Assembly (NCBI GenBank): GCA_027051165.1
Contig: JALTZZ010000059.1
Location: 1 to 58,644, forward strand
Origin: an archaeon
Lineage (GTDB): Archaea > Hydrothermarchaeota > Hydrothermarchaeia > JALTZZ01
Direction: 5' to 3'
Length of the DNA stretch: 58,644 bases
The notes below the pieces were generated by a model. It was not told the DNA's origin. It was given only the letters and a program-made list of their open reading frames with translations, and did not search any database. This document shows, one piece after another, positions 6,252 to 28,274 of the stretch; position 1 is the stretch's first letter, and every line of letters begins with the position of its first letter. Position numbers and translations under genes: made by a program.

Positions 6252-7331
6252 TTAGTGCTTTGGAAGTTCTACGTAAAATATACTGCCCTTAGGATTGTTA
6301 TCCTCAACCCATATTCTGCCGTTGTGTATCTCGACAATTCTTTTCGCTATAGCCAATCCAAGTCCAGTCCCTTTAATACCTTCCTTGCATCCCCTCTCAA
6401 ATCTCTCGAAGATTCTTCTCTTATATTTATCTGGAATGCCAATTCCTTCGTCTGCTATGGAGACAACAACTCTATCGCCAAAATCAGAGACCTTTATCCT
6501 TATAGTTGAACCTTCTGGACTGTATTTAATCGCATTATCTATTAGATTAGCAAAAACGTTCTCTATAAAGTTGCACGCATTTATGATGACATCTTTATTT
6601 TCCTGATAAAATTCTATTTTAATGTTCTTTTCCTTCAATCTGTTTGAAAACATTTTTATGACATTGTTGATCAAATCTGATAAATTTATTTCTTTTTTCT
6701 CTACATGATTTTCTATAGAGATTATCTTTGAGAAAAACTTCATATTTTCGATAATATCGCTTATCTTCTCAACATTTCTCATTGCTATATCCTTTCCCTC
6801 ACCCTCAAGGTCTTTGAGTATGTTCTTTACAACGGTAAGTGGATTCGCTATATCGTGCGTGAGGATGTCTATATAAAGATCTCTCTGTTCGATGTTCCTC
6901 TTTAGCTCGTGTATAGCCCTTCTCCTCTCTTTTATAGCCTCATACATTCCATAGATAAGTATAAGCAGTCCAAGCGGAAGCATAAATTTAGGAATAGCCA
7001 GCAGTATAGGCACGTTATAAGCTCCAGATAGGAACTCCGAGTATAGGCTTACAAATATCAGGGATAGTCCAGCAGTCGTGAAGATGTAAACCCTAAAACT
7101 AAGCTCCCACATGGGTTGCATAACTATAATCCATATAAAAGCTAATATTGATAGAAGAAGCTTGTCAAACATGATAACACCAGTTTTTTGGAAAGAAGAT
7201 GCGTAAAAGGTCATTAACATTGCTATTAAAATCAGCGTTGCTGGAATAAAAACCTCGAACTTCGTTCTCTCTTTTCTATATAGACTGCTCTTGCTGTTCA
7301 TTTTTATATTTATTTTTCTCATAAAATTCAC
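6252..7331 (-). CDS. Membrane sensor histidine kinase
   Basis: N-terminal TM helices, ILTHDIANPLT H-box, NVFANLIDNAIKYSPEG, DEGIGIP, GTGLGLAIAKRIVE. Confidence 0.93.
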   Translation of the reverse strand: MNFMRKINIKMNSKSSLYRKERTKFEVFIPATLILIAMLMTFYASSFQKTGVIMFDKLLLSILAFIWIIVMQPMWELSFRVYIFTTAGLSLIFVSLYSEFLSGAYNVPILLAIPKFMLPLGLLILIYGMYEAIKERRRAIHELKRNIEQRDLYIDILTHDIANPLTVVKNILKDLEGEGKDIAMRNVEKISDIIENMKFFSKIISIENHVEKKEINLSDLINNVIKMFSNRLKEKNIKIEFYQENKDVIINACNFIENVFANLIDNAIKYSPEGSTIRIKVSDFGDRVVVSIADEGIGIPDKYKRRIFERFERGCKEGIKGTGLGLAIAKRIVEIHNGRIWVEDNNPKGSIFYVELPKH

Positions 7332-7335
7332 CGTA

Positions 7336-8865
<1,530 letters not shown>

Positions 8866-24600: not shown

Positions 24601-24856
24601 AACCATCTATATCCTCTCTTTCTATAATCTTTGCCACTACCTCAGCTTCCAGCGGCTCTATATAGATTTTATCGGCAATTTCTTTATCCGTTTGTATAGT
24701 TGCCGGATTCGAATTGACGAGCACAACCTCATAGCCTTCTTCTCTTAAAGCCTTGCACGCTTGCGAGCCAGAGTAGTCAAATTCAGCAGCCTGACCTATA
24801 ATTATTGGCCCAGACCCTATGACGAGGATTTTGCTTATATCTGTTCGCTTAGGCAT
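21608..24856 (-). CDS. carB: Carbamoyl-phosphate synthase large subunit
   Basis: Full-length duplicated ATP-grasp protein. Confidence 0.97.
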   Translation of the reverse strand: MPKRTDISKILVIGSGPIIIGQAAEFDYSGSQACKALREEGYEVVLVNSNPATIQTDKEIADKIYIEPLEAEVVAKIIEREDIDGLLPTMGGQTGLNLAVQLHEMGVLEENDVKILGTPIESIKKAEDRELFANLMKEIKEPIPESYAVNSLEEAFEAVEKIGYPVIIRPAYTLGGTGGGVATNKKELIGIVNRGLKASMINQVLIEKSLLGWYEFEYEVMRDSKDNCIIVTSMENIDPMGIHTGESIVVAPAQTLSDEDHQKLRDAALKIIRALKIEGGCNIQFAVNPESWEYYVIEVNPRVSRSSALASKATGYPIARIAAKIAVGLTLDEIPNDVTRYTPASFEPALDYVVVKIPRWPFDKFKTADKRIGTQMKSTGEVMAIGRTFEEALQKAIRSLDIKRFGICCDGRKYEENIEVIKRELKYPTDKRIFYIYDAIRAGMSIDEIYELTKINKFFLYKIKNIYEFAEKLKKKRISDLTREDLLQAKKLGFSDRQLAYIFKTTEDEIRKLRKKLNVIPTYKMVDTCAAEFEAKTPYYYSTYESVDEVKVSNRKKVVVIGSGPIRIGQGIEFDYCCVHAVKALKEEKIEAIIVNNNPETVSTDYDTSDKLYFEPLTLEDVLNIIEKEKPYGVVLQFGGQTPLNIALDLERYNIPILGTKPKSIDLAEDREKFSKLLRKLGIPQADFGIAYSIDEAKKIARKIGYPVLVRPSYVLGGRAMDIVYDEEHLEEYMEEAIEVSEKHPVLIDKFLEEAIEIDVDAVCDGEDIFIAGIMEHIEHAGVHSGDSACVLPPVTLSEDVKKTIIEYTEKIAKALNTIGLINIQFAVKDKVYVLEVNPRASRTVPFVSKAINVPLAKIATKIMLGKKLKDFGLVGYRGPKYYAVKEAVFPFIKLPGVDPVLGPEMKSTGEVMGIDFDFGKAYYKAQLAAGNKLPLQGTIFISVRKQDRNGKLVYIAKKLKELGFNLIATKGTAAFLRENGIDVKTIKKISEGSENILDLMLKKKVDLIINTPTSGKIPFTDGYYIRRYAVDLRIPYITTIAGALAAVKAIESVKTGEISVMSLDEYYKKDKEIKQKVKAKI

Positions 24857-25946
24857 GCTTCTTCACCCTCATGAGTTCGATGAATTCATCAAATAAATAC
24901 ACTGCATCATGCGGTCCGGGATGAGCCTCTGGATGATACTGCACGCTAATAATGGGAAGCTCCTTATGAATCATTCCCTCTAAGGTGTTGTCGTTTAGGT
25001 TTATCTGAGTTACTCTAAACTCTTCTAAGCTTTCTATATCTACCGCATAGCCGTGATTCTGTGTTGTTATATAAACTCTGTCTCTGAAGAAATCCTTAAC
25101 GGGCTGATTAGCACCTCTATGACCAAACTTAAGTTTATACGTTTTAGCACCGCTTGCAAGTGCGAGAAGCTGATGACCTAAGCAAATTCCGAGCATTGGT
25201 ATCTGCTCGTCAAAAAGCCTTTTTATTGTTTCAACAACATACCATGCTTGAACAGGGTCGCCCGGACCGTTTGATACAAGAACTCCGTTTGGCTCTAAGT
25301 CTAAAATCGTTCTATAGTCCGTATGAGCGGGTACAATCGTTACTCTTACACCTTTCTTTAAGAGATACTCTGCTATGCTTTTTTTCATTCCACAGTCTAT
25401 AATAACAACGTGCTTATCTCCTTTACCGAAGCTCTCAATTTTATCCCTTGTAACAAATCTTACAAGGTCGAGTTCTCCTATATCTGGAGATTTTATCGTT
25501 TTTTCAAGGAGTTCTTCTTCATCATCTTTTGTTATCTTATCCTTAACAAGCAAGCCAGCTTTCATCGTTCCATACTTCCTAATCTTTATTGTTAAAGCAC
25601 GGGTATCAACGTCGTATATTCCCGGGGTTTCGTTTTCCTTCAAAAACCTATCTATAGTTTTTAAGCTGTCTCTATGCTCAGGAGAAGCACAAGCTTCTCT
25701 TACAACAAAACCTTCGCACTGTATTTTATAGCTCTCACTCGAATAACTGTTAATTCCATAGTTTCCTATCAGAGGATACGTAAGCATTAGAATCTGACCC
25801 TTATAGCTTGGATCCGTTAGGGCTTCCTGATAGCCAGTCATGCTTGTGCAAAATACTATCTCACCAAACACCTCCTTTTCAGCTCCAAAACCTTTGCCCC
25901 TGACTATAGTCCCGTCCTCTAAGGCTAAGCACGCCTCCATTATCAT
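24849..25946 (-). CDS. carA: Carbamoyl-phosphate synthase small subunit
   Basis: GICLGHQLLALA, YHPEAHPGP, FCTSMTGYQE. Confidence 0.97.
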   Translation of the reverse strand: MIMEACLALEDGTIVRGKGFGAEKEVFGEIVFCTSMTGYQEALTDPSYKGQILMLTYPLIGNYGINSYSSESYKIQCEGFVVREACASPEHRDSLKTIDRFLKENETPGIYDVDTRALTIKIRKYGTMKAGLLVKDKITKDDEEELLEKTIKSPDIGELDLVRFVTRDKIESFGKGDKHVVIIDCGMKKSIAEYLLKKGVRVTIVPAHTDYRTILDLEPNGVLVSNGPGDPVQAWYVVETIKRLFDEQIPMLGICLGHQLLALASGAKTYKLKFGHRGANQPVKDFFRDRVYITTQNHGYAVDIESLEEFRVTQINLNDNTLEGMIHKELPIISVQYHPEAHPGPHDAVYLFDEFIELMRVKKHA

Positions 25947-26070
25947 GACACATTAAATTTCAACTATATAAAATTTATTTCAAAAATGAATTATATAAGC
26001 CAGAATGAAAAATAATTTCCATTTGCCACATATAAAAGCTTTGGCATATCGGCAGCATCGAACAAAATTC

Positions 26071-26187
26071 TTTAGATTTAGATTTAGATTTAGATTTAGA
26101 TTTAGATTTAGATTTAGATTTAGATTTAGATTTAGATTTAGATTTAGATTTAGATTTAGATTTAGATTTAGATTTAGATTTAGATTT
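26071..26187. repeat. Hexanucleotide tandem array (TTTAGA)19.5
   Basis: Perfect uninterrupted period-6 tract in the carA/kinase intergenic region. Confidence 0.98.
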
Positions 26188-26252
26188 TTTTATTCGGAGC
26201 ATCAGAAACCGAAAAACAAAACTTTTTAAATAACGTTCATAAAACTACTCAT

Positions 26253-27290
26253 GTGAACAATAATAGCATCGAGTTGAAGTTTGGGGCAGTATTCCCCATA
26301 GTAGTGTTTATTTCTGCTATATTTATGACGGTATATGCTCACAGCTTTTCAAAAACCTATGGAAGTATATCGTTTATAAGTGGTTTTGTAGCAGTTTTAA
26401 TATTTATATGGCTAATTGTGGTTCAACCGTTCAGAGAAGTTAGTGATAAAGGATATCTAATAGTATCATGTGGACTTACGATAATGTTTTTCGTATATTA
26501 TTCTGAATTTCTTTTAAGCATCTACAACGTTCATATCTATCAATACTTCCAAATACTAAAACCACTTGGCATTATACTGCTAATTTATGGAATATACGAA
26601 ACAATAAAAGATAGAAGAAAGATTATTGAAGAATTAAAGGAAAGTATAAGGCAGAAAGAACTTTATATAGACATTCTTACTCACGATATTGCAAATCCCC
26701 TAACCGTAATAAGAGGCGTTATAGAATACGGAGACTACTCCGGAAGGGAAGAGAGGGAGATGGCTCTAAAAAATATACACAGAATAACAGAAATTATCGA
26801 GGATATGAAGATATTTTCAAAATTAAATGCCATGGAGAACCTTCCAAAACAGAAGATAGTAATTAATGAAGTTATAGAGGGAATAATAAAAGCCTTTGAA
26901 AAGAAGCTGAAAGAAAAAAATATAAAGATAGAGTTCAATCCAAAGAGGAAGTTCTGTATATATGGAAATAGCCTCATAAAGCATGTTTTTTCTAATTTAA
27001 TAGACAATGCAATAAAATATAGTCCAAAGGGAACAAAAATAAAGATAAATATAGAGGAAGAGGATGGCTATATACTAGTTTCTGTGGCAGATGAAGGAAT
27101 AGGTGTTCCAGATGAATATAAGAAAAGCATATTTGAGAGATTTGAAAGGGGAAGCAAAAAAGGTATCAGAGGGACTGGGCTTGGTTTAGCTATAGCAAAG
27201 AAGGTTGTAGAGCTCCACAACGGAAAGATATGGGTCGAGGACAATAAACCTAAGGGGAGTATATTCTATGTAAAGCTTCCAAAAGGTTAG
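26253..27290 (+). CDS. Membrane sensor histidine kinase (paralog of 6252-7331), GTG start
   Basis: YIDILTHDIANPLTVIRG, NLIDNAIKYSPKG, GTGLGLAIAKKVVELHNGKIWVEDN; TATA-like tttttaaata upstream. Confidence 0.93.
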   Translation: MNNNSIELKFGAVFPIVVFISAIFMTVYAHSFSKTYGSISFISGFVAVLIFIWLIVVQPFREVSDKGYLIVSCGLTIMFFVYYSEFLLSIYNVHIYQYFQILKPLGIILLIYGIYETIKDRRKIIEELKESIRQKELYIDILTHDIANPLTVIRGVIEYGDYSGREEREMALKNIHRITEIIEDMKIFSKLNAMENLPKQKIVINEVIEGIIKAFEKKLKEKNIKIEFNPKRKFCIYGNSLIKHVFSNLIDNAIKYSPKGTKIKINIEEEDGYILVSVADEGIGVPDEYKKSIFERFERGSKKGIRGTGLGLAIAKKVVELHNGKIWVEDNKPKGSIFYVKLPKG

Positions 27291-28270
27291 TCATTTAAGT
27301 ATAAGCATGGCATCTCCGAAGCTGTAGAAGCGGTATCTCTTCTCTATAGCAATCTTGTATGCACGCAGTATTTTGTCAACACTTCCAACAAAAGCTGCTA
27401 CAAGCAGTATATTGCTCGATTTCGGTAGATGGAAGTTTGTTATCATGCCACCGTATTTAAGCTTGAACTCGTATCCGGGTTCTATAAATAGGTCTGAAAA
27501 TCCGCTTTTACTTAAGACTCTTCCATCTTCTGCTACTGTTTCGAGAGTCTTTACTACTGTAGTTCCAACGGCAAATACCCTTGCTTTTTCAAGTCCTTCG
27601 TTTATTATTTCAGCAGCTTCTTTGCTTACCTCGTAAGCCTCTGGCTCTGGTTTATAGTTCTTATCTAATGGTTTAAAGGTTGCGGTTCCAACGTGCAATG
27701 TTATTTTTGCTATCCTTACACCTTTTTTTTCAAGTTCTCTAAGGAGATCCTTGGTAAAGTGCATGCCAGCGGTAGGTGCCGCTATTGATCCAAGCTTTTC
27801 AGCATAAACTGTTTGGTATCTTTCATGATCAATTTTTGGATTTTTTATATATGGAGGCAAGGGAGTTTCTCCGTAAATTTCCAAATCGTCAAAATTTATT
27901 TCTCTGTCAAACTTCAAATAAGTTTCATCGTTTTTTATCACCTTAGCCTTTAAATCTTTAAAATAAATTTCCATACCGTCTCTAAGTTTTTTTCCTTTTA
28001 GAAGAACCTTCCAAGTTTTGTCGTCAACTCTTTTAACAAGAAGAGCTTCTACTTTTCCTCCGGTTGGTTTTCTCCCTATAAGCTTTGCCTTAACAACCTT
28101 TGAGTTATTTACTACGAGAACATCTCCTTTTTCAAGATAGTCGGTAATTTCATAAAAATATCTGTGTTCAATTTTATCATCTTTGCTCCATAGAACCATT
28201 AATCTTGATCTGCTTCTCTCTTCTATAGGCTCCTGAGCAATTAGCTCTCTTGGCAGTTCATATTCAATAA

Positions 28271-28274
<4 letters not shown>
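27291..28274 (-). CDS. queA: S-adenosylmethionine:tRNA ribosyltransferase-isomerase homolog
   Basis: LIAQEPIEERSRSRLMV, GSIAAPTAGMHFT, LHVGTATFKPL, TNFHLPKSSNILLVAAF. Confidence 0.93.

Follow-up and report, generated by a model that had tools for sequence, protein, structure and literature searches.

To our knowledge, nearly all documented cases of phase variation driven by repeats are bacterial, most of them from pathogens and commensals. Upstream of the promoter of Neisseria meningitidis nadA, a TAAA tract separates the NadR operators, and expression varies quasi-periodically with its copy number (PMC2791445). In Haemophilus influenzae, a TA tract lies between the divergent hif promoters and heptamer tracts lie about 100 bp upstream of the hmw genes, while the hexamer tracts of this species have yielded no evidence of mediating phase variation (PMC2651432). 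Among archaea, four 6-bp EarA operator sites are found directly upstream of the Methanococcus maripaludis fla BRE (PMC5512572). A 2025 review names the distribution in archaea among future extensions (PMC11868660), surveys have found such repeats to be depleted in archaeal genomes (PMC12699852), and in a literature search with most subscription journals outside its reach we recognised no paper on archaeal SSR phase variation.

The stretch of DNA analysed here (58,644 nucleotides, hereafter the window) corresponds to contig C59 in a draft genome of 2,376,348 bases and 171 contigs. This genome encodes reverse gyrase, histone-fold proteins, a thermosome and an archaeal SRP RNA, and is therefore that of an archaeon whose gene set is typical of a thermophile; its nearest relatives among the class genomes share the order rank only. 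The earlier note had described a perfect 117-bp hexanucleotide array between carA and a kinase gene, and TRF bears this out. The features of the interval are as follows (window coordinates):

24849–25946, minus strand: carA, divergent to the kinase gene (Pfam CPSase_sm_chain, 1e-51; GATase, 7.9e-55)
25964–25979, minus strand: carA proximal core promoter AATAAATTTTATATAG, matrix score 8.56 (4.2e-4), at leaderless spacing
26030–26045, minus strand: carA distal core promoter GCCAAAGCTTTTATAT, matrix score 8.63 (4e-4)
26047–26079, plus strand: left flank TCGGCAGCATCGAACAAAATTCTTTAGAT, with a weak likeness to the right flank (gapped local score 28)
26071–26187, plus strand: hexanucleotide array (TTTAGA)19.5 (TRF, 100% match, 0 indels)
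26193–26213, plus strand: right-flank dyad TTCGG-N11-CCGAA, a candidate operator that abuts the kinase BRE
26216–26231, plus strand: kinase BRE/TATA core promoter ACAAAACTTTTTAAAT, matrix score 10.79
26253–27290, plus strand: membrane-type histidine kinase P0001, 345 aa (Pfam, translation)

The array has a period of 6, is uninterrupted over its 117 bp, and reads (AGATTT)n on the coding strand of the kinase gene. Core promoters were scored with a 16-bp BRE/TATA matrix obtained by expectation maximisation on 493 upstream regions of the same genome. The kinase core promoter is the strongest in the interval, its score being reached by 3e-5 (0.003%) of window positions, and its distance of 37 bp from the GTG start codon predicts a leaderless transcript. 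The array ends 36 bp before the TATA-like TTTTTAAATA (26223), as previously claimed, and lies upstream of the kinase promoter, a placement that stands with one refinement: the array sits between divergent predicted promoters, at nearly the same distance from the kinase BRE (28 bp) as from the distal carA BRE (25 bp). It falls outside the transcripts predicted from the core promoters on either side and outside any credible gene. Since it is upstream of both predicted core promoters, a change in its length would alter neither a reading frame nor the spacing within a core promoter, but only what lies beyond the array or the binding capacity of the array itself. The interval around the array had no RNA match in Rfam, and scans for sigma-70 promoters and terminators gave nothing exceeding shuffled sequences. 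A plus-strand promoter that would read through the array from the TATA-like CATATAAAAG was rejected, the site scoring as a minus-strand (carA) promoter. On the far side of the kinase gene, window positions 27291–28274 (minus strand) encode a QueA-type queuosine synthesis protein (PF02547, 1e-111); archaeosine rather than queuosine is expected in an archaeal genome.

The likeness between the two flanks is weak, a score of 28 being equalled in 11 of 5000 shuffles and in 1 of 493 and 37 of 1476 real controls, as is the motif common to both, CGG(C)AGCATC(A)GAA. It is suggestive only of a left flank that may be the remnant of a duplicated promoter, or of paired operators, and a flank duplication is likewise a suggestive origin for the array. 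The exact TTCGG-N11-CCGAA dyad occurs nowhere else in 1.30 Mb of sampled sequence, some dyad of this size being expected by chance. A second dyad, TGCCA-N13-TGGCA (window 26024–26046; one exact instance in 1.30 Mb), encloses the distal carA TATA box and is a possible candidate for a carAB operator.

The kinase P0001 matches PF02518 HATPase_c (1.7e-30, 106.1 bits) and PF00512 HisKA (4.6e-7, 30.2 bits, cut-off 26.9), and its H-box (HDIANPLT), N box, G1 and G2 are intact. By this HisKA plus HATPase_c content it is predicted to be a two-component sensor histidine kinase. Its best match in its own genome is P0002, the next-best covering the catalytic half only, and a scan of named genomes with the kinase found no close relative. 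Both P0002 and its neighbour P0003 lie elsewhere in the window, with a second long array:

6252–7331, minus strand: histidine kinase P0002, 53% identical to its paralogue P0001 over 339 aa
7336–8865, minus strand: PAS-PAS histidine kinase P0003 (Pfam PAS, HisKA, HATPase_c)
8769–8850, minus strand: companion array (AAAG)20.5 in the 5' coding region of P0003 (TRF)

The paralogy of P0001 and P0002 asserted in the earlier note is upheld by this alignment, and so is the position of P0002 behind the AAAG-array kinase, the gap between the two genes being 4 bp (7331/7336). P0003, which starts with a TTG behind GGTGGTGA, is likely the first gene of an operon with P0002. Its AAAG array is at present in frame, and the gain or loss of one unit would lead to a stop 0–14 codons past the array; by this frame count, it is a true frame switch. 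Thus, this kinase subfamily has two loci only, and each of them carries one of the long arrays, with a different unit, place and mechanism.

Although 17 of 23 class genomes retain carAB, none of the class relatives has a P0001-type kinase within 1.5 kb upstream of carA (some contigs end earlier), so that the kinase together with its array appears to be a lineage-specific arrangement. No further exact or near copy of the (TTTAGA)19.5 array was found in its own genome and no exact copy in the 22 other class genomes; a class-wide search for TTTAGA, CTTT and AGATTN arrays likewise gave none beyond its own genome.

How exceptional such arrays are was assessed by a repeat survey of 1,296,024 bases (1.296 Mb, 55% of the genome), made up of stretches from many contigs, partly picked around kinases. 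Perfect arrays of more than 4 copies number three in this sample: (CTTT)20.5 at window 8769, which is the companion AAAG array, (TTTAGA)19.5, also in the window, and (AATCTC)5.2 on another contig. In order-1 and order-3 Markov simulations (3 x 776 kb), units of 4–6 bp never exceeded 4 copies. Homopolymers are also short: the 1.30 Mb contain 120 of length 8, one of length 9 and none longer, and the 776-kb part contains none of length at least 9, against roughly 95–170 predicted by the Markov models. Either selection or a sequencing effect may account for this homopolymer ceiling. Given the simulations and the scarcity of slippable tracts, the two long arrays stand out strikingly, and from their purity we infer recent or continuing turnover. 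No more than 3.5% of the sampled DNA is situated within 1.8 kb of a kinase match, a figure that the kinase-biased sampling makes too high for the genome as a whole; the chance of both long arrays landing near kinases is about 0.0012 (two of two, a post hoc estimate).

The third array of the survey has a bearing on the hexamer:

L127 (contig C62), 1708–1738: (GAGATT)5.2, equivalent to (AATCTC)5.2 (repeat survey)

On the coding strand of the adjoining gene it reads AGATTG, one base from AGATTT and in the same orientation, and it ends 13 bp above a predicted leaderless core promoter (score 8.63). Hexamer arrays just above a core promoter therefore occur twice in this genome. The adjoining gene (L127 843–1656, minus strand) encodes a small membrane protein and has an in-frame TAA after codon 33; it is a possible pseudogene, and its present expression is doubtful on account of this stop.

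The kinase array resembles the nadA tract most closely. In both cases, a short-unit array lies upstream of a core promoter (PMC2791445), and whereas copy number sets the spacing of flanking operators in nadA, the flanking sequences likewise spaced here are candidate operators only. The present locus differs in its archaeal BRE/TATA promoter, its 6-bp unit, its 19.5 copies and its target, a sensor kinase instead of an adhesin. Like the hifA/hifB (TA)n tract, the array is placed between divergent promoters, but the hif tract is inside the combined promoter itself, while the archaeal array is 25–28 bp outside the nearest predicted core promoters; the hmw1a/hmw2a heptamer tracts are likewise upstream of their genes, at about 100 bp. 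The fla EarA sites share with the array the repetition of 6-bp elements above an archaeal BRE (PMC5512572), but they are four operator sites directly above the BRE and not a perfect slippable array ending 28 bp away. Finally, the companion AAAG array (8769–8850) fits the type of the H. influenzae tetranucleotide frame-switch genes, with the difference that frame-switch contingency genes target surface antigens and that the gene concerned here encodes a signalling kinase, in an archaeon that has reverse gyrase. SSR promoter phase variation calls for a long, pure, short-unit tandem array placed where its length alters promoter spacing: the array is 117 bp long and 100% pure, and its position relative to the predicted core promoters is of this kind. 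The locus has the anatomy of a phase-variable locus, from which variation in length and an effect on expression may be inferred.

Our reading, which we hold with about even confidence, is that the array serves the kinase P0001 as a contingency element acting through promoter distance, closest to that of nadA. Replication slippage in the population would add or drop 6-bp units, and each change would reset how far the kinase core promoter is from a factor bound on or beyond the array, and how the two are rotated relative to each other, the candidates for this factor being a flank-bound regulator, the carA promoter complex or histones. Kinase transcription, and with it signal sensitivity, would then differ from cell to cell. 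The earlier note had proposed a shift of about half a helical turn per unit and a graded response: the spacing holds (6 bp is 0.57 turn), but not the smooth grading, since, if helical phase matters, this value predicts a near-alternation with copy parity and a beat roughly every seven units (42 bp, or four turns). Its regulatory interpretation is partly sustained, in that the unique perfect array lies upstream of, and not within, the kinase core promoter and in that both paralogous kinases are array-linked.

The contingency reading draws on a stretch of 117 bp that is perfectly pure although the genome otherwise has hardly any such repeats, on its position beyond the predicted transcripts and 28 bp above the kinase BRE, on the presence of both long arrays at the two loci of one kinase subfamily, where the companion switches frame, on the related AGATTG array above another leaderless core promoter, on the lineage-specific carA–kinase arrangement, and on the nadA, hif and hmw precedents. 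Against it stand the near-consensus kinase promoter, the weak likeness of the flanks for paired operators, and the H. influenzae hexamers without evidence of phase variation. Activator-dependent archaeal promoters tend to depart from consensus (PMC5512572), and the near-consensus kinase core promoter argues against dependence on an upstream activator; repression or looping fits it better than activation.

The main rival, somewhat unlikely in our view, is a neutral microsatellite, in which a TTTAGATTT-like seed would have grown by slippage within the non-coding spacer and would play no regulatory role. The array is indeed intergenic and upstream of both predicted core promoters, its 6-bp unit is unable to break a frame, and the left flank contains the seed-like AACAAAATTCTTTAGAT. 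Hexamer loops are, moreover, expected to evade MutS-type repair. As for that repair system, MutS1 scores above cut-off (983 bits; L209:3040–5577, minus strand, contig C29, adjoining a thermosome gene) and no protein of the genome matched MutL at E 0.001, an absence that would also suit neutral growth; MutS1 without a matching MutL is an unusual pairing. However, random slippage would scatter arrays, and just three of more than 4 copies occur in 1.30 Mb, the two long ones at paralogous kinase loci and the third, too, close above a core promoter.

Next among the rivals comes a fixed, EarA-type multi-site operator, whose hexamers, each part of a binding site, would recruit many copies of a DNA-binding protein or exclude histones, copy number tuning its strength without any switch. 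We regard it as improbable. The four EarA sites above the fla BRE are an archaeal precedent (PMC5512572), histone genes are present, and the related AGATTG array stands above another promoter; yet the 6-bp site of an EarA-type regulon should recur above other promoters, and the genome has no TTTAGA array elsewhere and AGATTN runs at two places only, with a differing sixth base, which leaves no visible regulon. The purity across 19.5 units is also more than binding would require. It is very unlikely that the copy number is a product of the draft assembly, a short natural array having been mis-sized: the assembly is in 171 contigs, but the contig runs through the array with unique flanks, a read of common length would exceed the array, two different arrays are present, and mis-sizing would not make the motif. 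Least probable of all, and rejected, is a coding role, as a (Phe-Arg)n small protein (plus strand, 26005–26229) or a (Ser-Lys)n one (minus strand, 25975–26202): both frames are open and the kinase TATA also scores 5.33 on the minus strand at a roughly leaderless distance from the minus ATG, but any frame in which the hexamer has no stop is open automatically, the plus ORF terminates inside the kinase TATA box and has no promoter of its own on that strand, and there is scant unique sequence beyond the array.

Returning to the promoter-distance contingency element, the two arrays together resemble, in an archaeon, the contingency switching by slippage that is familiar from bacteria. We tentatively suggest that they form a pair that diversifies signalling, each having come independently to one of the two members of the sensor-kinase subfamily, the AAAG frame switch and the promoter-distance hexamer generating combinatorial kinase states within a clonal population. 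If this is true, bet-hedging by slippage would work in archaea and would act at the level of signalling, not of surface antigens, and promoter-distance effects on TBP/TFB promoters would become directly testable.
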